Positions 49 through 13,144 of a stretch of DNA of 29,728 nt are shown piece after piece. Made by a program: the position numbers and the translations under genes. Source of the DNA: a virus; IMG/VR virus record IMGVR_UViG_3300007735_000587, positions 1 to 29,728 of that record; one strand, given 5' to 3'. Position 1 is the first letter of the stretch. Each line of letters opens with the position of its first letter. The notes below the pieces were generated by a model. The model did not search any database and was not told where the DNA came from. It was given only the letters and a program-made list of their open reading frames with translations.

Positions 49-63
49 GCGGCAGGACGCCGC
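49..63 (+). promoter_or_regulatory. AGGA-loop hairpin, copy 1
   Basis: A perfect 5-bp GC stem (GCGGC / GCCGC) closes a 5-nt loop AGGAC. It ends 16 nt before the ATG at 80. The 16-nt spacer is A/G-rich (GAAAGAGAG). The same hairpin, with closely similar flanks and the same 16-nt spacing, occurs before the genes at 860 and 1166, and with 13-nt spacing before 3155. GGA in a hairpin loop is the known recognition element of CsrA-type proteins, and a CsrA-like gene lies at 2931. Function as a translational operator is inferred. Confidence 0.6.
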
Positions 64-79
64 GGAAAGAGAGATACAG

Positions 80-661
80 ATGCACAGTCTCGATCGGATG
101 ACAAGCGAAGAACTCGCGGAGTTCGCGATGCAGGTCCGCCGGTATTTCCCGGCGAGGAGCGAGGCGGATGACGCCGTCTGGAGGCTCGCGCTCGAGAGGA
201 TCCGCGAGATACCTCGCGAGATCGCATATCAGGCGCTCGAGGCTTACGCGATGCGATGGGGCGGACCGCGAGCGCGGTTCATCTCTGGGAAGTACTTCGA
301 GGCTGTCGACGCCTGCCGCGCTCAGTTCGAGGCGCAGCGAGCGGCCGCTCGCCGGCGCGAGGAGTCCGATCGCCGGATGCTCGAGGGGAGCGCTGAGGCC
401 GAGTCCGTCGCGGCAGACTGGCTCGAACGCCGGCGAGAGATCGAGACGGCGAACCCGCTCGAAGTCGGGGAGGCCGTCGACCTCCTGCGGAGCCTCGGTT
501 GGGGTCATCCTCCGGCGGATCTCAGCGCTTGGCCGCGCTCATGGATCCTCGCCGTGTCCGATATCGTGACATCGCGCAGGGTTCCGGGAGACGAGGCGGA
601 TCCGGCTCGGTTCTACCAGACGCGAGCTAGAGCGCCGCAGAGGGCGCTAGAGGCGTTCTGA
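80..661 (+). CDS. hypothetical protein, 193 aa
   Basis: I do not recognise this family. The protein is highly charged and looks largely helical, with Arg/Glu-rich segments at about residues 80-125. There is no signal peptide, membrane segment or obvious catalytic motif. The ATG at 80 is chosen because an AGGA-loop hairpin ends 16 nt upstream, exactly as it does before the starts at 860 and 1166. A GTG at 8, overlapping a TGA at 9-11, opens the same frame and would add 24 Arg-rich residues that read through the hairpin. That GTGA overlap is common in this genome, so the longer form remains possible. The start codon aside, the frame is well supported by its length and codon pattern. It could belong to the replication-accessory class of phage early genes, but nothing in the sequence proves this. 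Confidence 0.7.
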   Translation: MHSLDRMTSEELAEFAMQVRRYFPARSEADDAVWRLALERIREIPREIAYQALEAYAMRWGGPRARFISGKYFEAVDACRAQFEAQRAAARRREESDRRMLEGSAEAESVAADWLERRREIETANPLEVGEAVDLLRSLGWGHPPADLSAWPRSWILAVSDIVTSRRVPGDEADPARFYQTRARAPQRALEAF

Positions 662-787
662 GGCGATGACGGCACTCCGGGATGGTCCGATCGCCGAGGC
701 TCCTAGGTGCCATTCCCGGCACTTTGCATATACATCGTCCAGATAACGAGAATCTGCAAGGAATCTCCGGAATTGCCTCGGAAGGAC
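662..787 (+). other. intergenic region with imperfect stem (possible weak terminator)
   Basis: Together with the promoter and hairpin that follow, this is the longest gene-free stretch in the window (662-859). CCGGGATGG at 677-685 can pair with CCATTCCCGG at 710-719 with one bulged T. The outer GGCAC (671-675) can alternatively pair with GTGCC (708-712). There is no T-run after the stem, so an intrinsic terminator is only a possibility; a folded leader or attenuator is equally possible. I see no tRNA and no open frame worth calling here. Confidence 0.3.
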
Positions 788-815
788 TTGCATTGCGGCT
801 GAATCTCTGTATAGT
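788..815 (+). promoter_or_regulatory. candidate sigma70-type promoter
   Basis: A good -10 element TATAGT (810-815, five of six matches to consensus) lies 16 nt after a weak -35 TTGCAT (788-793, three of six). The element sits in the only sizeable non-coding stretch of the early block. It would start transcription around 822, just before the AGGA-loop hairpin at 829-843, placing that hairpin at the very 5' end of the message. The host's promoter consensus is unknown, so this is a candidate only. Confidence 0.4.
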
Positions 816-828
816 GATCCTATCAGCC

Positions 829-843
829 GCGGCAGGAAGCCGC
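829..843 (+). promoter_or_regulatory. AGGA-loop hairpin, copy 2
   Basis: A perfect 5-bp stem GCGGC / GCCGC closes the loop AGGAA, ending 16 nt upstream of the ATG at 860. The downstream spacer begins AGAAAGCGAGAC, almost identical to that of copy 3. The AGGA is 22 nt from the ATG, too far to act as the Shine-Dalgarno sequence itself, so the loop probably serves another purpose such as binding a regulator. If the promoter at 788-815 is real, this hairpin is at the 5' end of the transcript. Confidence 0.65.
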
Positions 844-859
844 AGAAAGCGAGACAGCC

Positions 860-1069
860 ATGAGCAACCAGATCGACATCATCGCGCGCGCCGAGGGCAC
901 CAACTTCCGCCTCACCCCGGTTTCCAAGTTCGCTCGCGAATATTTCGGCCTCAAGTTCGGCGGAAGCGCCGAGATGACGGTCGATTCCGTCGAGGTCGAC
1001 TCGATCCAACTCGGTCGACTGCTCCGATGGTGCGATCAGGCTCGCGCCGTCGTCATGATGGTCGACTGA
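860..1069 (+). CDS. small hypothetical protein, 69 aa
   Basis: This 69-residue soluble protein belongs to no family I recognise. There is no membrane segment, and the only Cys is near the C terminus (RWCDQAR). The predicted content mixes beta strands with a short helix. It is isolated from its neighbours: 198 nt of non-coding sequence precede it and 96 nt of hairpin-rich sequence follow it, unlike the overlapping genes of the rest of the block. The start is fixed by the AGGA-loop hairpin that ends 16 nt upstream and the A/G-rich segment that follows. A separate transcription start (candidate promoter 788-815) and its own leader hairpin suggest it is individually regulated. Small early phage proteins of this kind often bind host factors, but no specific function can be given. 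Confidence 0.7.
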   Translation: MSNQIDIIARAEGTNFRLTPVSKFAREYFGLKFGGSAEMTVDSVEVDSIQLGRLLRWCDQARAVVMMVD

Positions 1070-1083
1070 GACGACGCGGAACG

Positions 1084-1107
1084 GAGGAGCCTCTCGCGAG
1101 GCTCCTC
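1084..1107 (+). promoter_or_regulatory. strong 10-bp hairpin between genes
   Basis: GAGGAGCCTC (1084-1093) and GAGGCTCCTC (1098-1107) form a perfect 10-bp stem around the tetraloop TCGC. No U-run follows, so this is not a standard intrinsic terminator. It is followed by a second small hairpin (CGCGC at 1113-1117 pairing with GCGCG at 1124-1128) and then by the AGGA-loop hairpin at 1134-1149. This gives three consecutive hairpins in a 96-nt leader. A role as RNA-stability element, processing site or leaky terminator is inferred. Confidence 0.55.
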
Positions 1108-1133
1108 GACTCCGCGCCTTCAAGCGCGCAACC

Positions 1134-1149
1134 GCCGGCAGGAGCTGGC
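1134..1149 (+). promoter_or_regulatory. AGGA-loop hairpin, copy 3
   Basis: GCCGGC / GCTGGC form a 6-bp stem with one G-U wobble and the tetraloop AGGA, ending 16 nt before the ATG at 1166. Relative to copies 1, 2 and 4, the fifth base pair from the loop is C-G instead of G-C and the third is G-U instead of G-C. The stem is therefore kept while the sequence changes, which is modest covariation evidence for selection on RNA structure. Confidence 0.65.
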
Positions 1150-1165
1150 AGAAAGCGAGACGACA

Positions 1166-1468
1166 ATGCACATCATGGAACTCACCGCTCAGGAGATCGA
1201 CCGCGCCATCGCGGAGATCAACGCACTCGTGCGCGAGCCGTACCGCTGCTCGCAGGGCGACTTCCCGTGGCTTGACGATGCGAACCTCGACAACTGGATT
1301 CAGGCGCTCGAGCAGGACGGCGAGGTCGAGATCCCGTCCTTCTACGCGATCTCAGGACGCACCGAGCGAGTCCGCCGGGTGTTCATCGAGCAGCGCCCGC
1401 AACTGCGCGAGCTCCCGACGATCGACGTCGAGATCGCGAAGGTCGATCGGATCGGGGGGGCAGCGTGA
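1166..1468 (+). CDS. hypothetical protein, 100 aa
   Basis: This 100-residue acidic soluble protein is unrecognised. It opens with a helical stretch (residues about 5-22), has a central Trp-containing segment (FPWLDDANLDNWIQALEQ), and ends in Arg-rich then Val/Ile-rich strands. No catalytic motif is evident. The ATG at 1166 is supported by the AGGA-loop hairpin with its 16-nt spacing and by the AAAGCGAG segment between. Its TGA overlaps the GTG start of the lysozyme-like gene (GTGA), so translation of the endolysin is probably coupled to this gene. Any control acting on the 1134-1149 hairpin would therefore pass to the endolysin. It heads a chain of overlapping genes that runs unbroken to about 5.7 kb. 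Confidence 0.7.
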   Translation: MHIMELTAQEIDRAIAEINALVREPYRCSQGDFPWLDDANLDNWIQALEQDGEVEIPSFYAISGRTERVRRVFIEQRPQLRELPTIDVEIAKVDRIGGAA

Positions 1469-1872
1469 CACTCCTCATCTTCTCCTCTCTTCTCGCGATC
1501 GCACCGCCTGCGGGAACCGACACCCGCGCGATCCTCGACGCGATCCGTACCGTCGAGACAGGCGGCGAGCGCGACCCGGACTCCGCGATCGGCGACGGCG
1601 GCAAGGCGCTCGGCGCGTACCAGATCCATCGAGCCTACTGGCTCGACGCGACGGAGAAAGATCCTGCGCTCCGCGCTCTCGGATACGAGTCCGTCATGGA
1701 TCGCGCCATCGCCGAGCGCGTCGTCATCGCGTACCTCACGCGATACGCGCCGCGTTGGGATCTCGACACCATCTCGCGAGTCCACAACGGAGGACCCCGA
1801 GGACACACGAAGGACAGCACCAAGGGCTACGCGGCGAAAGTCGCAAAGGCCGCGAAGGAGGCACGACAATGA
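1465..1872 (+). CDS. i-type-lysozyme-like endolysin with N-terminal hydrophobic segment
   Basis: This is a predicted peptidoglycan-degrading enzyme of the lysozyme-like fold, 135 aa. The core resembles i-type (destabilase) lysozymes: VETGG at 30-34, then GDGGKALGAYQIH at 43-55, and HNGGPRG near residue 109. In i-type lysozymes a Glu and an Asp about 12 residues apart are catalytic. Glu31 and Asp44 fit that pattern. Residues 2-13 (TLLIFSSLLAIA) form a short hydrophobic N terminus resembling a signal or signal-anchor segment, although it lacks positive charges. The GTG start overlaps the upstream TGA, and the stop overlaps the next ATG. The gene is about 6 kb away from the membrane-protein lysis cluster at 7.4-8.4 kb, which is unusual for a lysis cassette. 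The family call is by motif only; a transglycosylase-type lysozyme is the main alternative. Confidence 0.72.
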   Translation: MTLLIFSSLLAIAPPAGTDTRAILDAIRTVETGGERDPDSAIGDGGKALGAYQIHRAYWLDATEKDPALRALGYESVMDRAIAERVVIAYLTRYAPRWDLDTISRVHNGGPRGHTKDSTKGYAAKVAKAAKEARQ

Positions 1873-2162
1873 GAGAAGACAATCGAACGCAAGGCGACAT
1901 CTGGATCAGGCTCGAGCGCGACGATCTCGAGGTCGGCAAGGAGGCGGTCGACCTGATCGCATGGATCGAGGGACTTTCCCTCGGCAGCGAGGACGAGCCG
2001 ACCGTGACCTTCCTCGCGCACAAGATCGGCGAGGAACTCGGATCGAGCGAGAACATCTGGAACATCTCGGTCAAGCGGCTCCGCGCTCTCTGCGACGCAG
2101 CAGAGGCCATGCACAAGGTCGGAGTCCAGCAGTTCGACACGCACGAAGGGAGCGCGAAGTGA
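1869..2162 (+). CDS. hypothetical protein, 97 aa
   Basis: This 97-residue acidic protein is not recognised. It appears mostly helical. A segment around residues 33-55 (DEPTVTFLAHKIGEELGSS) is followed by a helix ending in LRALCDAAEAMHKVG. There are no transmembrane or metal-binding motifs. The ATG at 1869 overlaps the TGA of the lysozyme-like gene (ATGA). Its own TGA overlaps the GTG of the Gp157-like gene. The frame stays open a long way upstream, but residues before 1869 would be read inside the lysozyme gene and have shadow composition, so the overlap start is preferred. Its place between an endolysin and a Gp157 homologue does not point to a function. Confidence 0.68.
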   Translation: MREDNRTQGDIWIRLERDDLEVGKEAVDLIAWIEGLSLGSEDEPTVTFLAHKIGEELGSSENIWNISVKRLRALCDAAEAMHKVGVQQFDTHEGSAK

Positions 2163-2683
2163 ATCAGACGCTCTACCAGATCGCGGACGACCTCCGCGCC
2201 CTCGAGGCGCTTCTCGTCGAGGCCGGCGGCGACCTCTCCTCTCCCGAGGCGCTCGCCGCAGTCGAGGCGTGGGAGGCCGAATTATCGACGAACCTCTCCG
2301 GCAAGGTCGACAACTACTGCGGCCTCATCACCGAGATCGAGGTCCGCGCGGCCGCACGGCAGGCTGAGTCCGATCGGCTCCGCGATCTCGCGCGCGTCGA
2401 CGACAATGCGGCGAAGGCGCTCCGAGAGCGGCTGCGATTCATCCTCGAGGCGCGAAGCCTTGGACCGATCCAGACCGAGCGCTTCCGCGTCTCGGTCGCG
2501 AAGAACGGCGGCAAGGCTCCGCTCGACATCCGAATCGGACCAGACGAGCTCCCCGAGTGGGCTGTAAAGCGGAAGATCGTCGTCGAGACCGACAAGGATG
2601 CGATCCGCGCTCGGCTCGAGGCCGGCGAGTCCCTCCCATTCGCAAACATCATGGAGCGAGGCACTCGCCTCGTCATCAAGTGA
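2159..2683 (+). CDS. Gp157-family (siphovirus Gp157) protein
   Basis: This protein of 174 aa matches the layout of the siphovirus Gp157 family (Pfam Gp157, named for a streptococcal phage protein implicated in phage resistance). The N terminus begins LYQIADDLRALEALL, followed by an acidic region. A KVDNYCGLITEIE segment is the family hallmark, where a 'K-DNY' motif precedes a long coiled coil. After the coiled coil (about residues 60-105) a beta region includes RFRVSVAKNGG, an IPEWAVK-type segment (LPEWAVKRK), and KDAIRARLEAGE near the C terminus. The length is usual for the family. The GTG start overlaps the upstream stop. The biochemical role of Gp157 proteins is not settled; phage homologues lie near recombination or replication genes such as single-strand-annealing proteins. 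None is in this window. Confidence 0.85.
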   Translation: MNQTLYQIADDLRALEALLVEAGGDLSSPEALAAVEAWEAELSTNLSGKVDNYCGLITEIEVRAAARQAESDRLRDLARVDDNAAKALRERLRFILEARSLGPIQTERFRVSVAKNGGKAPLDIRIGPDELPEWAVKRKIVVETDKDAIRARLEAGESLPFANIMERGTRLVIK

Positions 2684-2934
2684 AGACGAAGCGAAAGCAG
2701 CTCAAGCGACCGTACCTCACGACCGCCGTCGTCGATGGCCTCGAGGCCATCATCTCGCGGATCCGTATCCGTGACGAGAACGAGTGGAAGGCGTCGCGAT
2801 GGGTCGCGCATCTCGTCGAATATCGCGATACCATCTGCGAGCCGGAAGCGCAGGACGCGCAGTCTCCCGGAGCTGCGGCCGGGGAGGTCTCCCTCCCCGG
2901 TCGCGCAGGAGACTCGGCAGAGGAGACGCGATGA
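2680..2934 (+). CDS. hypothetical protein, 84 aa
   Basis: The N terminus is very basic (VKTKRKQLKRPYL), followed by an amphipathic helical segment (residues about 14-50) and a Pro/Ala/Gly-rich C-terminal tail. I do not recognise the family. The basic end could contact nucleic acid, but that is a guess. The GTG start overlaps the Gp157 stop. The stop overlaps the ATG of the CsrA-like gene. The coding sequence contains two RNA-level features: a small GCGC hairpin with an AGGAC loop at 2848-2860 and a perfect 9-bp hairpin at 2879-2900. Both lie just ahead of the CsrA-like start, so the low-complexity tail of this protein may be shaped by RNA structure. Confidence 0.6.
   Translation: MKTKRKQLKRPYLTTAVVDGLEAIISRIRIRDENEWKASRWVAHLVEYRDTICEPEAQDAQSPGAAAGEVSLPGRAGDSAEETR
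2848..2860 (+). promoter_or_regulatory. possible fifth AGGA-loop hairpin (short stem)
   Basis: GCGC / GCGC form a 4-bp stem with the loop AGGAC, the same loop as copy 1. It lies inside the preceding gene, about 70 nt upstream of the CsrA-like ATG at 2931. The stem is short and the position differs from the four main copies, so it may be chance. If real it could serve autoregulation. Confidence 0.3.
2879..2900 (+). promoter_or_regulatory. 9-bp perfect hairpin before the CsrA-like gene
   Basis: CCGGGGAGG (2879-2887) pairs perfectly with CCTCCCCGG (2892-2900) around the loop TCTC. It ends 30 nt before the CsrA-like start codon, upstream of that gene's ribosome site (AGAGGAGA, about 2919-2926). 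No U-run follows. It may control coupling or message stability; this is inference from position. Confidence 0.45.
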
Positions 2935-3158
2935 GCGAACATCGGGAACAGCGCGATCCGAACCTCGGATATATCTCCCGTCGAGTCTACGAAGGAGACA
3001 AGATCCATCTCGAGATCGACGGCCGGCATCTCGGATTCATCGAGATCGCGCATCTTCCCTACGGGAACCGAGCGCGGATTACGCTCGCTTTCGATCGAGC
3101 CGTCCGCATTGTGCGAAGAGAAGACGAGCGGCAGGAGCCGCAGAAGGAGACGATATGA
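2931..3158 (+). CDS. CsrA/RsmA-like RNA-binding regulator (divergent)
   Basis: This 75-aa protein is predicted to be a small beta-strand RNA-binding protein of the CsrA family, which bind GGA in RNA hairpin loops and block or promote translation. ISRRV-E at 15-21 matches the LTRRVGE start of CsrA. N46-x-A-R-I-x-L (46-52) followed by VRIVRRED (58-65) aligns without gaps to the NQVRIGI...VSVHREE half of CsrA. The Arg pair 17-18 and Arg62/63 correspond to the two RNA-contact sites (Arg6/7 and Arg44). About seven extra residues (DGRHLG region) sit between the first strands, and there is a 12-residue N-terminal extension, so it is divergent. The ATG has a clear AGAGGAGA site and overlaps the upstream TGA. 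The hairpin at 3128-3141 lies within its own 3' end. Alternative: an unrelated small beta protein. Confidence 0.55.
   Translation: MSEHREQRDPNLGYISRRVYEGDKIHLEIDGRHLGFIEIAHLPYGNRARITLAFDRAVRIVRREDERQEPQKETI
3128..3141 (+). promoter_or_regulatory. AGGA-loop hairpin, copy 4
   Basis: GCGGC / GCCGC form a perfect 5-bp stem with tetraloop AGGA, inside the 3' end of the CsrA-like coding region and 13 nt before the ATG at 3155. Here the spacer holds a good ribosome site (AGAAGGAGA). The hairpin is also present on the CsrA-like gene's own message, which would allow autoregulation or control of the downstream gene chain. Confidence 0.65.
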
Positions 3159-3730
3159 GCGACGAATACGAGTCGGAATGGGAGCGCCGGAAGCAGTTCA
3201 TCCGCAACGGTTTTCCGATGCCGCATTGCGGCGGCAAGCGATACACGATGCCTGATGATATCGCCGAGGAACTCAAGGTCCGAGCGGCGATCGAGCAGGT
3301 GGAAGGGACTGTCTTCGAGCGAGCCGCCGTCGAGATCGAGAGACTCCGATCCGAGCGCGACGAACTCCAGAAATGGAAGGACGCGCACAACACCTTCTGG
3401 CGCGACCGAGCGGAACGCCGCGACGCGATGCGCGAGAGCGGAGACGGCATCGACTGGAAGCATCGTGCCTTGTGCGCCGAGGCCAGCCTCGGGACGTACA
3501 AGCGAGCGTACGCGCGTCAATGCTGCAAGGATCTCTACTCGTCCGGTGCGAGGTGGAAGACGCGACCGAATCCCATGCGAGACGATGGGGTCTTCATAGA
3601 GGAAGCCTGCGATCCGGGAAAGAACCGGACGCACTTCCCATTCCCGTACCAGTTCGAGCACGACGTCGCGAACGAGATCGTCGAACTCCTCAACCGAGCG
3701 ACCGATGATCTAGAAAGGGAGGAGCGATGA
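3155..3730 (+). CDS. hypothetical coiled-coil protein, 191 aa
   Basis: The protein has an N-terminal charged segment with a His/Cys pair (MPHCGGKRY). A predicted coiled coil follows at about 45-80 (FERAAVEIERLRSERDELQKWKD), then an Arg-rich helix and a Cys-containing segment (ARQCCKDLYSS). The C-terminal part contains DDGVFIEEACDPG and a helical end (FEHDVANEIVELLNRA). The IERLR-type coiled coil recurs in the genes at 4068, 4626 and 4954. No enzymatic motif is recognised. The ATG overlaps the stop of the CsrA-like gene, has a strong AAGGAG site, and is preceded by the fourth AGGA-loop hairpin. The TGA overlaps the next ATG. It is probably an accessory early protein; the function is unknown. 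Confidence 0.7.
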   Translation: MSDEYESEWERRKQFIRNGFPMPHCGGKRYTMPDDIAEELKVRAAIEQVEGTVFERAAVEIERLRSERDELQKWKDAHNTFWRDRAERRDAMRESGDGIDWKHRALCAEASLGTYKRAYARQCCKDLYSSGARWKTRPNPMRDDGVFIEEACDPGKNRTHFPFPYQFEHDVANEIVELLNRATDDLEREER

Positions 3731-9500: not shown

Positions 9501-10160
9501 ATGGCAGAGGAAGAACTGAAGAGCTACTCGCAGGCGTATCAGGACGCCTTCGCGATCGCCTGCAACGGATGGAAGGCGAACGGGACTTTCGTCGACCTCG
9601 GCGCAGGAGATCCGGTCGCAGGCTCGAATACCTTCGCGCTCGAGGAGCGCGGATGGAGCGGCCTCGTCGCGGACATCGCGACGGAGAACGAACTGCGAGC
9701 GAAGCGCACTCGATCGAATGTGTATGGGGATGCATTCGATCCGTCTGTCGACGATGAGATCCGTCGGCATAGTGTGATCGACTTCCTCTCGCTTGACCTC
9801 GAGCCGCCGGAGCTGACGCTGCGCCGGCTCGCCTCGCTTCCTATCGGCCGCGTGAAGTTCAAGGTCGCCTGCGTCGAGCATGATCTCTATCGCGGGAACG
9901 GGTCGATCCGTGCGGCAATGCGCGGGATCATGGAATGGCACGGATATCGGATGGCAGCAGCGGATGTCCGGATGCTCGCGGAGTCTGAGAACGGCCTCGT
10001 CCTCGTTCCTGTAGAGGACTGGTGGATCCATCCGCAGTTCGTGAGCTTGCCCGCGGCGATCGACTTCGCCGGTGTTCTGCGCGGGAAGTACGAGTCGGAG
10101 GCGTTCGAGAAGATCGCGTTCCTCGAGCGATGCAGGGCGCAGCCGGAGGAGGTCGCATGA
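9501..10160 (+). CDS. FkbM-family SAM-dependent methyltransferase
   Basis: This 219-aa class I methyltransferase begins SYSQAYQDAFAI, the entry motif of FkbM-type enzymes ('SQ-GQD'). Motif I, TFVDLGAGD (29-37), binds S-adenosylmethionine. SNTFALEERGWSGLVADI follows, typical of the family. Next come DFLSLDLEPPEL (acidic motif IV region) and VEHDLYRGNG near 135. FkbM members usually O-methylate sugars or polyketides. In a phage this could modify virion glycans, host surface sugars or another small molecule; the substrate is unknown. The ATG follows ATAGGAGA. Its stop overlaps the ParB-methylase start. A glycosyltransferase lies in the same genome at 19194, which makes sugar chemistry plausible. 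Confidence 0.78.
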   Translation: MAEEELKSYSQAYQDAFAIACNGWKANGTFVDLGAGDPVAGSNTFALEERGWSGLVADIATENELRAKRTRSNVYGDAFDPSVDDEIRRHSVIDFLSLDLEPPELTLRRLASLPIGRVKFKVACVEHDLYRGNGSIRAAMRGIMEWHGYRMAAADVRMLAESENGLVLVPVEDWWIHPQFVSLPAAIDFAGVLRGKYESEAFEKIAFLERCRAQPEEVA

Positions 10161-11644
10161 AGACCGAGACGGTCAAGATCGAGACGATCCAGTTCGATCC
10201 GGCGAACGCTCGCCGGCACGGCGAGAAGAACCTCGCCGCGATCAAGGCGAGCCTTACGCGATTCGGCCAGCAGAAGCCGATCGTCGTCGACGTGAACGGA
10301 GTATGTCGCGCCGGCAACGGAACGCTCGCCGCTGCGAAGGCGCTCGGATGGAAAGAGATCACGATCGTCCGATCGCCGCTCGCCGGCGCGGAGGCGACGG
10401 CCTACGCGATCGCGGACAACCGAAGCGCGGAGCTCGCAGAGTGGGACGACGATGTCCTCGCGCAGACGCTCGCCGCGCTCCAGATCGAGGACGAGGAACT
10501 CGCGTCGGCGACTGGATTCGATGCGAGGGAGATCGAGGCGCTCACCGCACCGGATGAAGTCGTCGAGGACGAGGTGCCCGAGCCGCCGTCCGACCCGATC
10601 ACGAAGCCGGGAGACCTGTGGATTCTCGGCGAGCATCGGCTGCTTTGCGGCGACTCGACGAAGGCCGAGGATGTGGATCGACTATTGAATAAAAACAAGG
10701 TCGCGCTGATCATGGCTGATCCTCCGTACTACATGAAGGTCGATGCCGACTGGGACAACGACTTCGATGGCTACGAAGGATTCCTAGACTTCCTGCGAAG
10801 GACTTTCGGAATCTGGGCACCGACGATTCTTGATCGTGGAACCGCTTGTTGGTGGTGCGCTCCAGACTTCGCTTGGCACATCGAGGGACTTCTGCGCGAG
10901 CACTTTGCGATATTGAACCACTTGGTGTGGTGGAAGGGCACCGACCTTGGCAGCAAGCAGTCGATCGAGGAGATGCGTAGGTGGAGGCCGAGGAGCGAAC
11001 GCCTACTCATCTGCGAGAAGCAGCATTCTCCAGATGCGCTGCTTGCGTCGTTCAATGCAAAGACGGCGCATATAGCCTCGCGTGTCGCATACGCAAGCAT
11101 CATCGAACGGCTTGCCGGATGGCAGAAGGAAGCCGATCTTTCAATGAAGGACATCGACAGAGTCCTCGGAAAGAAAGGCATGGCCGGCCACTACTTTACG
11201 AAGTCACAATGGGCGCTCCCGACACGCGAGGCTTGGGACAAGATGCGTCCGCTGTTTCAGTCGAGAGGTGTCGACATCGGCGAATGGGACGCGCAGCGCG
11301 CAGAGTTCGACGCGCAGCGCGCAGAGTTCGACGCGCAGCGCGCAGAGTTCGACGCGCAGCAGGGCGCGAACTTCACGGATGTATGGCAGATGACCGCACC
11401 AAAGGGAGAGGATCGGCATGGGCATCCGACTCCAAAACCTGTGGAGATGATCTCGCGGCTTATCTCGGCGCATTCGAGGACGGACGATCTAATAGCAGAC
11501 CCGTTCCTCGGCAGCGGCACGACCCTTATTGCCGCCGAGCAACTGGGCCGCAAGTGCTACGGGATGGAGATCAGTCCCGCGTACTGCGATGTCATCGTGA
11601 AGCGGTGGGAGACGCTGACCGGGAAGAAGGCAACCCGTGGGTAG
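10157..11644 (+). CDS. ParB-like domain fused to beta-class N4/N6 DNA methyltransferase
   Basis: This 495-aa two-domain protein starts with a ParB-like domain (about 1-95) holding NARRHGEKNLAAI, RFGQQKPIVVD and GNGTLAAAKALGW. Linkers and DPITKPGDLWILGEHRLLCGDS precede the methylase. Motif IV is DPPY at 188-191. Motif I (DPFLGSGTT) comes late at 448-456. That order marks a beta-class amino-methyltransferase, adding a methyl group to adenine N6 or cytosine N4. The target-recognition region lies between the motifs and contains a 21-bp tandem repeat (11288-11359). DNA of about 10680-11250 is visibly richer in A/T than its flanks, hinting that the recognition region was acquired separately. The likely role is protecting phage DNA from restriction or marking it for packaging. 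The target site is unknown. Confidence 0.88.
   Translation: MKTETVKIETIQFDPANARRHGEKNLAAIKASLTRFGQQKPIVVDVNGVCRAGNGTLAAAKALGWKEITIVRSPLAGAEATAYAIADNRSAELAEWDDDVLAQTLAALQIEDEELASATGFDAREIEALTAPDEVVEDEVPEPPSDPITKPGDLWILGEHRLLCGDSTKAEDVDRLLNKNKVALIMADPPYYMKVDADWDNDFDGYEGFLDFLRRTFGIWAPTILDRGTACWWCAPDFAWHIEGLLREHFAILNHLVWWKGTDLGSKQSIEEMRRWRPRSERLLICEKQHSPDALLASFNAKTAHIASRVAYASIIERLAGWQKEADLSMKDIDRVLGKKGMAGHYFTKSQWALPTREAWDKMRPLFQSRGVDIGEWDAQRAEFDAQRAEFDAQRAEFDAQQGANFTDVWQMTAPKGEDRHGHPTPKPVEMISRLISAHSRTDDLIADPFLGSGTTLIAAEQLGRKCYGMEISPAYCDVIVKRWETLTGKKATRG
11288..11359 (+). repeat. 21-bp tandem repeat in the DNA methyltransferase
   Basis: Three perfect 21-nt units (11288-11308, 11309-11329, 11330-11350) and a partial fourth. 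Each encodes a heptad DAQRAEF in frame, residues 378-398. The units are identical at the DNA level including silent positions, so copy number is likely to change by slippage without breaking the frame. The heptads would form an amphipathic helix of variable length within or beside the target-recognition region. Confidence 0.92.
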
Positions 11645-11969
11645 GCCGAGAGCGGAGATCAACCTTCCTCTCGTCCAGTCGCTCGCTCGCATCGGATGCA
11701 CTTGGGACGAGATCGCAGCCGTCACCGGGATCTCTCGCGCGACGCTCGCGCGACGATGCAAGAAGATCATTCAGGACGGACATGAGGAGATGCGGACTTC
11801 GCTGCGACGCTGGCAGTACCTCAAGGCGAAGGACGGCAATGTCGCCATGCTCATCTGGCTCGGCAAGCAGTACCTCGGCCAGAAGGACAAGATCGACGAG
11901 ACGCGCCGCGAGGAGGTCGTCACGATCGAGCGCATCGAGCCGAAGATCGCGCTCGCGGATGCCGGATGA
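11637..11969 (+). CDS. terS: terminase small subunit-like protein
   Basis: This 110-aa protein has a helix-turn-helix (VQSLARIGCTWDEIAAVTGISRATLARRC, about 14-41). It is followed by LRRWQYLKAKDGNVAMLIWLGKQYLGQKDK, a conserved 'A-L-GN-AMLIWLGKQYLGQ-DK' segment common in phage terminase small subunits. A short acidic C terminus ends the chain. Small terminases recognise the packaging site and pass DNA to the large subunit. The GTG start overlaps the MTase stop, and its own stop overlaps the large terminase ATG. The start choice relies on that GTG because the helix-turn-helix begins right after it. The gene order strongly supports the call. Confidence 0.82.
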   Translation: MGRPRAEINLPLVQSLARIGCTWDEIAAVTGISRATLARRCKKIIQDGHEEMRTSLRRWQYLKAKDGNVAMLIWLGKQYLGQKDKIDETRREEVVTIERIEPKIALADAG

Positions 11970-13144
11970 AGGTGAAGATCCCGAGCCTTGAGTCTGTGCT
12001 TCATCCGTCGCAGCGCGAGGTATACCGAAGCCTCGCGCGGTTCTCGATCCTCGAGATCGGACGGCGTTGGGGGAAGACGACATTCGGGATCCAGCTCGGG
12101 ATCGAAAATGCCATCCTTGCGAAGAAGTGTGGCTGGTTCGCTCCCTCGTACAAGTATCTCGCGAATCCGGTCCGATCCTTCGAGCGAGCGCTCAAGCCGC
12201 TCATCCTGCGGCATGATCGCGTTGAGAAGCGGATGGAGTTCCGCACAGGAGGAGAGCTCGACTTCTGGTCGCTCGAGGACAGCGACGCCGGCCGCGGACG
12301 GGACTACGATCTTCTCGTCGTCGACGAGGCTGGCTTTGTGCCGAATCTGCTCGACTGGTGGAGGAATGCCGCGCGAGCGACGCTCGCGGACAGGCGCGGC
12401 CGAGCGCTTTTCCTTGGTACTCCGAAAGGTACCGGAGACTTCCATCGGCTCTATCTCGAGGCAGAAGGCGACACCTCGGGACAATGGCGAGCATTCCGGA
12501 TCGGCTCTGCGAAGAATCCGCATCTCCCGGCCGACGAGATTGAGGCAGCTCGAGCAGCGCTTCCCCCAGAGGTCTTCGCGCAGGAGTTCGAGGGAATCCC
12601 GGCTGAGGATGGCGGGAATCCGTTCGGCCTCGACGCGATCCGATCTTGTCTCGCGCCGATGTCTTCTGCTCCTCCGGAGTGCTGGGGAGTCGACCTAGCG
12701 AAGTCGCAGGACTTTACGGTAGCCGCTGCGCTCGACGCCGAGGGGCGCGTCTGCCGGCTCGAGCGATGGCAGTCGCCGTGGAATGTCACGCGCGAGCGCC
12801 TCGCGCGGATGATCGGAGACAAGCCGGCGCAGATCGACTCGACGGGTGTCGGGGATCCGATCGTCGAGGATCTCCGCAAGGTCTGCCGTCGCGTCGATGG
12901 ATTCAAGTTTACGAGCCAGAGCAAGCAGCAGCTCATGGAGGGCTTGCAGATCGCGATCTCGACGGCAGAGATCCGGTTCCCTGACGGATGGCTCCGGAGT
13001 GAACTCGAGGCGTTCGGCTTCCGATACTCAGGAAGGACCGTCTCCTACGAAGCGACGGTCGGTCACGACGACGGCGTCTGCGCTCTCGCGCTCGCCGTCC
13101 TCGCGCGTCGCGCTCGCCGGCCGCTTCTGGTGAAAGTCATATGA
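11966..13144 (+). CDS. terL: terminase large subunit (packaging ATPase-nuclease)
   Basis: This 392-aa packaging motor subunit has an N-terminal ATPase and a C-terminal RNase H-like nuclease. Walker A is GRRWGKTT at 32-39. Walker B is LLVVDEAGF, with Asp120-Glu121. The coupling motif region reads LFLGTPKGTGDF. In the nuclease half, Asp243 (WGVDLAKSQD), Asp291 (IDSTGVGDP) and Asp368/369 (GHDDGVCALAL) provide the metal-binding triad. The length is typical of compact phage terminases. It is preceded by the small subunit and followed immediately by the portal gene (ATG 13141 overlapping the TGA), the standard headful or cos module. The packaging mechanism is not decided by this sequence alone. Confidence 0.95.
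   Translation: MKVKIPSLESVLHPSQREVYRSLARFSILEIGRRWGKTTFGIQLGIENAILAKKCGWFAPSYKYLANPVRSFERALKPLILRHDRVEKRMEFRTGGELDFWSLEDSDAGRGRDYDLLVVDEAGFVPNLLDWWRNAARATLADRRGRALFLGTPKGTGDFHRLYLEAEGDTSGQWRAFRIGSAKNPHLPADEIEAARAALPPEVFAQEFEGIPAEDGGNPFGLDAIRSCLAPMSSAPPECWGVDLAKSQDFTVAAALDAEGRVCRLERWQSPWNVTRERLARMIGDKPAQIDSTGVGDPIVEDLRKVCRRVDGFKFTSQSKQQLMEGLQIAISTAEIRFPDGWLRSELEAFGFRYSGRTVSYEATVGHDDGVCALALAVLARRARRPLLVKVI

Follow-up and report, generated by a model that had tools for sequence, protein, structure and literature searches.

Does a phage control a set of its own early genes through a repeated RNA hairpin and a regulator encoded beside it? This question is raised by the IMG/VR virus record IMGVR_UViG_3300007735_000587, of which a stretch of 29,728 nucleotides (hereafter the window) was analysed. 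A preliminary description of the sequence had proposed a Csr-type circuit, in which hairpins presenting AGGA in the loop would be read by the product of a CsrA-like gene located in the same block. Few phages are known to run a post-transcriptional regulon through an RNA-binding protein of their own, and T4 RegA is the classic example.

Hairpins upstream of start codons in the window

Four hairpins were found on the plus strand, each upstream of an ATG. Copy 1 (49..63; 5 bp, GCGGC-AGGAC-GCCGC), copy 2 (829..843; 5 bp, GCGGC-AGGAA-GCCGC), and copy 3 (1134..1149; 6 bp, GCCGGC-AGGA-GCTGGC) end 16 nt before the ATGs at 80, 860, and 1166, respectively, and copy 4 (3128..3141; 5 bp, GCGGC-AGGA-GCCGC) ends 13 nt before the ATG at 3155. 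The positions and spacers given in the preliminary description were thus confirmed, as were the swapped base pair and the one G-T wobble of copy 3, which leave its stem intact. All four copies also share a AGAAAGCGAGAC-like stretch downstream, which had not been described. The covariance model R2 finds only these four copies in the window (38, 46.9, and 38.8 bits for copies 1, 2, and 4), in agreement with the earlier statement that no fifth one is present there.

AGGA-loop hairpins with a stem of at least 5 bp are not rare by themselves, inasmuch as the whole window contains 11 on the plus strand and 6 on the minus strand; rather, the rarity lies in the position before an ATG. Such hairpins precede an ATG at five places on the plus strand, including the four family copies, whereas 300 first-order Markov resamples averaged 0.10 such places and never contained more than 1. 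The occurrence of the four hairpins before ATGs is not a product of chance. The predicted minimum-energy fold contains the hairpin in all four leaders, of which only that of copy 4 folds better than its shuffles (z -3.6); folding energy itself is therefore not evidence, and covariation in relatives is. Orthologous sites of copy 2 were found in the related loci L050, L051, and L052, and the orthologues of copy 3 carry compensatory changes (GCCGTC-AGGA-GACGGC in L051 and TCCGGC-AAGGA-GCCGGA in L052). The L050 orthologue of one window site has an AAGAA loop as opposed to AGGAA in the window.

The putative target genes, all on the plus strand, encode proteins of 193 aa (gene 1, 80..661), 69 aa (gene 2, 860..1069), 100 aa (gene 3, 1166..1468), and 191 aa (gene 4, 3155..3730). 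Target gene 1 has no Pfam or PHROG match; it belongs to a cluster of 11, the 10 other members of which, from further loci, likewise have the hairpin. Copy 4 is located within the CsrA-like gene, at its 3' end, with GGAGAC as the Shine-Dalgarno stretch; in the near-identical contig L193, which lacks target gene 4, this hairpin stands before the gene that follows. A possible promoter, as read from the sequence at 788..815 on the plus strand (TTGCAT at 788-793, a gap of 16 nt, and TATAGT at 810-815), could start a transcript a few nucleotides before hairpin copy 2; a stricter two-hexamer promoter scan does not call it.

A structured RNA family in early-gene leaders

At E <= 0.05, the R2 model detected 75 copies, distributed over 52 sources among related uncultured phages, and nearly all of them stand just before a start codon. 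The element consists, in order, of a GC stem of 5-6 bp, a loop of the type A-N-G-A(N) or A-N-G-G-A, an AGAA spacer, a GGAGAC or GCGAGAC stretch, and the ATG. The stem is mostly located 13-17 nt upstream of the ATG, and the Shine-Dalgarno stretch follows it by a few nucleotides. In the R2 family alignment, two-sided (compensatory) changes occur in all five stem pairs and 99.4% of the cells are paired; none of 500 shuffles reached any of the covariation measures, and slid structures dropped to 26-67% paired. Three 6-bp copies had been entered in seed A4 as inner-5-bp versions with the outer pair left out, because MAFFT had misaligned loops in A2 and A3, and the seed alone is affected. The preliminary description had named, as support to be sought by a covariance search, more copies before start codons in phages carrying the CsrA-like gene, with compensatory changes in the stem, and this is what was observed. 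It is nearly certain that the hairpins constitute a real structured RNA family, that is, a conserved cis-acting element in early-gene leaders, and its host is an uncultured tailed-phage lineage. The genes behind the hairpins are early, often unrelated genes that fall into 24 clusters, one of which is RecT.

For the window and five relatives, Rfam contained no family above the gathering threshold, and a lax threshold returned chance-level matches only, none of them over the hairpins. The possibility of an intrinsic terminator was rejected: there is no T run, the stem is followed by purine-rich AGAA.., and a scan of 600-1300 found none. Exact CGGCAGGA..GCCGCAGAA copies also occur in unrelated phages (e.g., L023, L028, and L040), once per record and without a CsrA-like gene, and were treated as chance or convergence. 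Four exact matches to the element were found in bacterial genomes; three are not before a start, and one is a contig of the same phage.

The four window copies all present GGA in the loop, which had been proposed as the recognition element. Across the family, this part of the proposal did not hold: GGA is present in 37 of the 75 copies, those four included, and absent from the other 38 (ACGAT, AAGAT, ATGA, and others), and in some phages all copies are without GGA and the CsrA-like gene is kept. What is conserved is A-N-G-A, with A1, G3, and A4 (or A5) being invariant. In a loop-blind test, 334 distinct GAGAC..ATG sites were scored for a hairpin directly upstream; 92 of them had one, and 77 of these 92 loops were ANGA(N) or ANGGA, as compared with 7-28 hairpins and 0-1 such loops at six control offsets. 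Sites of one phage that precede different genes tended to agree in loop type (agreement 0.77 versus 0.50 when shuffled, p = 0.0002). Such uniformity is what a single phage-specific factor reading every site would produce, and it suggests a trans-acting factor specific to the phage.

The CsrA-like protein and its association with the hairpins

The proposed regulator, a CsrA-like small beta protein of 75 aa, is encoded at 2931..3158 on the plus strand. By itself, the window protein has no Pfam or PHROG match, and a single-sequence scan of viral contigs returned no relative; its homologues (26 records) were found only via phage relatives and iterated profiles. All records missed the PF02599 cut-off, the best relative scoring 18.6 bits versus 27. 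The family nevertheless aligns collinearly with CsrA over the core. With the L101 member as master, hhalign gave a score of 26.1 (E 8e-5, 42 columns), the highest among 200 column shuffles being 17.9, whereas the score of 20.3 obtained when the window protein served as master was no higher than that of the best of 200 shuffles, which it equalled; further family-profile comparisons with CsrA gave an E of 6e-4 and a score of 22.0 versus 10.0 +/- 2.3.

Predicted models contain five strands (pLDDT 80 and 85). Structural comparison gave weak hits (Z 3.5-3.9). RsmF, a CsrA-family protein, ranks among the best of them (Z 3.6, 38% identity over 45 residues), but TRAP and unrelated folds reach a comparable Z. 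Foldseek searches of the PDB and viral models gave nothing significant, with CsrA-family rows appearing only in the second-look alignment, and sequence searches of the PDB with the protein, the family profile, and the L101 member gave no CsrA match. As read from the alignments, Ala36-Pro37 of CsrA is replaced by Phe-Asp in the family, the place of Arg44 is occupied by Arg in 10 of 14 members and has lost it in 4, and a conserved G-x-x-x-G turn is not in the CsrA alignment. The MCE model TIGR00996 (MlaD) matches 4 of the 14 members, at best with 5e-5 versus 0.03 for CsrA; no similarity emerged when profiles were compared, the MCE set being very small in this case. No close relative of the protein or of the lineage was found among isolated phages. 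The CsrA-like gene of the preliminary description is thus backed by the collinear profile and the predicted strands, but its scores reach none of the family cut-offs and an MCE model is the better match for some relatives, so that the assignment to CsrA is suggested by a similarity that is weak, although calibrated. CsrA-family proteins include phage and plasmid homologues (PMC7366521), and knock-down of a phage CsrA lowers plaque size (PMC11879866).

The CsrA-like gene and the hairpins are constant companions: wherever the sequenced early region of a relative spans the place of the gene, both are present, and the loss of hairpins in relatives keeping the gene, which would have spoken against the circuit, was not seen there. 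The co-occurrence is confined to one lineage, and hence cannot tell partnership from shared descent. As for a circuit with its own regulator, the element family, its position, and its linkage to the gene uphold the preliminary description, whereas the unconserved GGA, the weak similarity to CsrA, and the single lineage detract from it.

Probable translational control and its possible readers

The explanation we favor, at close to an even chance, is that of a translational operator in early leaders that is read by the phage's own CsrA-like protein and mediates repression. By occupying the loop, a protein would come to lie at the border of the ribosome binding site and impede 30S binding, so that early genes with nothing else in common would be under joint control. 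If the reader is the phage-encoded small beta protein acting as a dimer, one of its sites may engage the loop and the other the purine-rich Shine-Dalgarno stretch. CsrA needs GGA, and the 38 loops without it therefore count against a CsrA-type reader. A more specific version of this explanation, which we put forward tentatively, is that a far-diverged phage CsrA relative reads several early genes per phage via A-N-G-A loops instead of GGA, its specificity having drifted between phages and the target loops of each phage changing in step.

Known CsrA/RsmE sites are hairpins with A(N)GGA(X) loops, the pentaloops AGGGA and AAGGA being reported as of high affinity (PMC4005645). The phage element resembles them in its short GC stem, its proximity to the Shine-Dalgarno sequence, and, in the copies with GGA, its A(N)GGA loop, but differs in its GGA-less copies and invariant loop bases. 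The proposed protein would resemble T4 RegA, a small phage protein that acts at translation initiation of many genes; however, RegA sites are unstructured and A+U-rich (PMC3014915), and the two proteins bear no sign of relation.

The operator may also have another reader, such as a phage protein not recognised so far, a ribosomal protein, or a regulator belonging to the host, with the CsrA-like neighbor having a different task, for example, on host messages. We regard this as rather unlikely, although the loop consensus A-N-G-A differs from that of CsrA, none of the family hairpins detected lies directly upstream of the CsrA-like gene, and phage CsrA homologues were proposed to act on host processes (PMC11879866); a host reader in particular is less well compatible with the phage-wise uniform loop type than is a phage-encoded one. 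It is unlikely that no trans-acting factor is involved and that the hairpin is a self-sufficient leader part (a 5'-end stabiliser or insulator freeing the Shine-Dalgarno sequence) travelling with gene cassettes. The three loop bases (A, G, and A) would not have to be invariant in a pure stabiliser, yet the pattern recurred in hairpins detected blind to it; a stable tetraloop could explain the pattern, but loop length varies between 4 and 5. This possibility draws on a -10-like box located 13-19 nt upstream of the hairpin in 12 of 48 distinct sites (versus a 0.2% background), which would place the hairpin a few nucleotides from the transcript 5' end, as well as on the unpaired Shine-Dalgarno stretch in the predicted fold of copy 4 and on gene gain or loss exactly downstream of the hairpin in L193.

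T4 RegB cuts GGAG in early leaders (PMC3014915), and this precedent, together with the location of the hairpin in early leaders beside a Shine-Dalgarno stretch, would fit RNA decay or processing, with a phage or host endoribonuclease or RNA-binding cofactor reading the hairpin beside GGAGAC. This is very improbable: GGAG is not conserved, window copies 1-3 reading GAGAG or GCGAG, and no linked nuclease gene was identified. Least probable of all is a DNA-level feature (an operator or recombination site) with the stem as a mere palindrome. An inverted repeat in several copies and the gene swap at the L193 site would be consistent with it, but the strand is fixed, the range of distances to the ATG is narrow, and the conserved central loop is asymmetric; moreover, stem sequences vary with pairing kept, which a DNA-binding site would hardly tolerate.

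The element has a parallel in the SAS/ESAS of cluster K mycobacteriophages, which, according to the sections of two reports that treat them, are multi-copy, asymmetric, and located directly upstream of start codons, the genes concerned being non-structural and from different families, with AGGA between short complementary ends (GGGATAGGAGCCC); their role is unexplained and a regulator is sought (PMC3203893, PMC12699233). The present element shares its multiple copies, asymmetry, and position before non-structural genes with SAS. However, the copies here read GCGGCAGGAnGCCGC and variants and do not match GGGATAGGAGCCC within two deviations, and SAS is a primary sequence, whereas the phage element has a variable stem with compensatory changes, an A-N-G-A loop, and a separate Shine-Dalgarno stretch. 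SAS hosts are different phages, and those sections do not mention a CsrA-like gene with SAS (PMC3203893, PMC12699233).

Because the operator is small and defined, and was found by covariation in dozens of genomes, short RNAs can be used to test its partner protein directly. Should the CsrA-like protein prove to be that partner, the hairpins would provide a phage-internal target set for a phage CsrA-like protein, as well as a natural series of loop variants in which to study the coordinated change of an RNA-binding protein and its sites; otherwise, the element points to a different reader. Together, the hairpin and the CsrA-like protein may be the phage's own switch for turning gene sets on or off.

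A start-codon hairpin in the window and its relatives

The window is an entire virus record, possibly a fragment, of 29,728 bases with 62% GC. Early genes, including a Gp157/Gam-like gene, lie in its left part, and are followed by a terminase at 11966 and a portal-head fusion at 13141, after which come more structural genes. A long open reading frame at 10022-11644, which on our reading of the sequence resembles a ParB-methyltransferase fusion, contains a short in-frame repeat, AQRAEFD, in about four copies.

The four AGGA-loop hairpins of the preliminary description (49-63, 829-843, 1134-1149 and 3128-3141) were all found at the claimed distances before ATGs, at 80, 860, 1166 and 3155. AGGA-loop hairpins of at least 5 bp number 17 in the window, both strands counted, and are not rare in such GC-rich DNA, so that stem and loop alone would mean little. 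An AGGA hairpin ending shortly 5' of an ATG occurs at five places on the plus strand, the four copies included; 300 resampled sequences gave 0.10 such places on average and never more than 1. The post-stem stretch common to the window copies is AGAAAGCGAGAC or shorter, and includes a Shine-Dalgarno-like GAG/GGAG.

Relatives were gathered by scanning with gene 2 (860..1069; three relatives) and with the terminase (80 loci). Orthologous sites keep the hairpin with compensatory changes: at the third site, the window has GCCGGC-AGGA-GCTGGC, L051 has GCCGTC-AGGA-GACGGC, L052 has TCCGGC-AAGGA-GCCGGA, and L050 shows one mismatch; at the second, L050 has GCGGC-AAGAA-GCCGC, an intact stem without GGA. 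A covariance model was built from eleven copies (R1) and then from 53 (R2), and R2 yielded 75 copies in 52 sequence stretches, which supplied the further pre-start copies and compensatory stem changes that the preliminary description had named as support. Among 69 distinct copies, two-sided changes occurred at all five pairs and 99.4% of cells were paired; no shuffle reached the observed values, and slid structures were paired in 26-67% of cells. Because the alignment was fitted to the structure, a second test was added that did not choose the loop. Hairpins of at least five Watson-Crick pairs lay directly upstream of 92 of the 334 distinct GAGAC-to-ATG sites of this phage group, 77 of the 92 with a loop of ANGA(N) or ANGGA, versus 7-28 hairpins at six control offsets, with such loops in 0-1.

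Anatomy of the element and the genes behind it

The consensus order is (AAC), stem, loop, AGAA(N), GGAGAC or GCGAGAC, a few nt and ATG, with a stem of 5-6 GC-rich pairs whose closing pair is nearly always C-G. Loops take the forms A-N-G-A, A-N-G-A-N and A-N-G-G-A; every one of the 75 copies has an A at position 1, a G at position 3 and a later A, and the second base may be G, C, A or T. GGA in the loop, originally taken as the CsrA recognition element, is present in 37 of the 75 copies but is not family-wide, being absent from the other 38. A -10-like hexamer precedes the stem by 13-19 nt at 12 of 48 distinct sites (0.2% at random places), so that the hairpin there would begin a few nt from the transcript 5' end. 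Other sites, such as window copy 3, have a strong GC hairpin 25-50 nt upstream of the element. Between gene 2 and copy 3, the strong palindromic hairpin GGAGGAGCCTCTCGCGAGGCTCCTC (1083-1107) is retained in relatives with altered sequence, and has no T run.

The downstream genes form 24 clusters, of which one is RecT and the majority are small and functionally unassigned. In L193 (RFQY01000153.1), a contig near-identical to the window and binned in a Rhodobacteraceae MAG, the copy-4 hairpin and leader (960-1030, against window 3128-3160) stand directly before gene 10, and gene 9 (3155..3730) is missing. A gene was thus gained or lost exactly 3' of the element. The bin is weak evidence as to the host.

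The CsrA-like protein

The CsrA-like gene previously placed in this block has one candidate, 2931-3158, whose product resembles CsrA. Searched singly, the protein gave zero matches. Its homologues were collected, aligned and compared with CsrA sequences from phages and plasmids, and the profile comparison gave a collinear core alignment (E 6e-4). With the member from the relative L101 as master, the score was 26.1, and none of 200 column shuffles exceeded 17.9; when the window protein served as master, it was 20.3, equal to the best of the shuffles. Repetition with a wider CsrA set gave 22.0 versus 10.0 +/- 2.3 (maximum 20.9), and a six-frame search gave weak CsrA matches in three relatives, the best at 18.6 bits, below the cut-off of 27. 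AlphaFold models have five strands in the CsrA order. In a second-look structural alignment, the CsrA-family protein RsmF had a Z of 3.6 (38% identity in 45 residues), and TRAP and unrelated beta folds matched at similar Z. Against CsrA identity stand Phe-Asp in place of the CsrA Ala-Pro, the absence of Arg44 in 4 of 14 members, and the better fit of four members to the MCE model TIGR00996 (best 5e-5). The protein is here termed CsrA-like and is not classed as CsrA.

Some members carry a zinc-ribbon-like CxxC...CxxC C-terminal tail (L101 2262-2681, also L096, L099 and L103). A hairpin, CCGGGGAGG..CCTCCCCGG (window 2879-2900), lies about 30 nt 5' of the CsrA-like start codon, within the preceding gene, with similar ones in L051 and L052; it is a possible control site for the CsrA-like gene itself. 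A separate phage-like contig of the same MAG as L193 encodes a bona fide CsrA, above the Pfam cut-off, adjoining RecT-like, Gp157-like and integrase-like genes (L211 286-3078), a neighbourhood of the same kind.

A possible translational operator

Gene-by-gene survey of 41 records found the CsrA-like gene in 26, with clear hairpins in 22 of these. Hairpins without the gene occurred in four records (G006, G015, G047 and G050), all contigs that stop short of the gene's place; the gene without a clear hairpin occurred in G014, G024, G033 and G035, which either are fragments starting within the early block or close to it, or give a weak hairpin hit. Where both are absent, the other early genes are absent too, except in G037, a fragment ending in gene 1 (80..661) with one weak hairpin hit. 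The separation of hairpin from gene that would count against the preliminary description was not seen in relatives, but this cannot serve as proof of linkage, since in no relative has either been lost without the other. A more telling hint than co-occurrence is the uniform loop type within a phage, with ACGAT at nearly all sites in some and AGGA in the window's group. Agreement in GGA status at sites before different genes was 0.77 within phages versus 0.50 when shuffled (15 phages; p = 0.0002). Loops that change in step at independent sites are expected from a trans-acting reader; copying-driven spread could also make them uniform.

Our tentative preference, at close to an even chance, is that the hairpin acts as a translational operator and that a dimer of the CsrA-like protein reads it; we infer both. 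The operator might have a different reader, which we consider rather unlikely. That the hairpin is a part of the leader working without any reader is slightly less probable; the -10-like boxes shortly upstream of some copies would suit it, and the invariant loop bases would not be expected from it. A processing site appears very improbable, and a DNA site, with pairing maintained by two-sided changes, the most improbable of all.

Rfam has no family matching the element, and the portions of the literature consulted contain no such start-codon hairpin. In those sources, the nearest known counterparts come from cluster K mycobacteriophages, whose SAS elements are start-associated, multi-copy and unexplained. 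CsrA homologues occur in phages (PMC7366521), and one influences plaque size (PMC11879866); a phage-internal operator set does not appear in the consulted parts of that literature.

The structure, position, family and company with the CsrA-like gene of this element are established. As a translational operator, its loop would be gripped by the CsrA-like dimer, which may also grip the purine-rich Shine-Dalgarno region lying 10-15 nt beyond it, and the bound dimer would compete with the 30S subunit. Such a scheme would follow the logic of CsrA, for which A(N)GGA(X) loops are described (PMC4005645), with a specificity that is here relaxed or changed.
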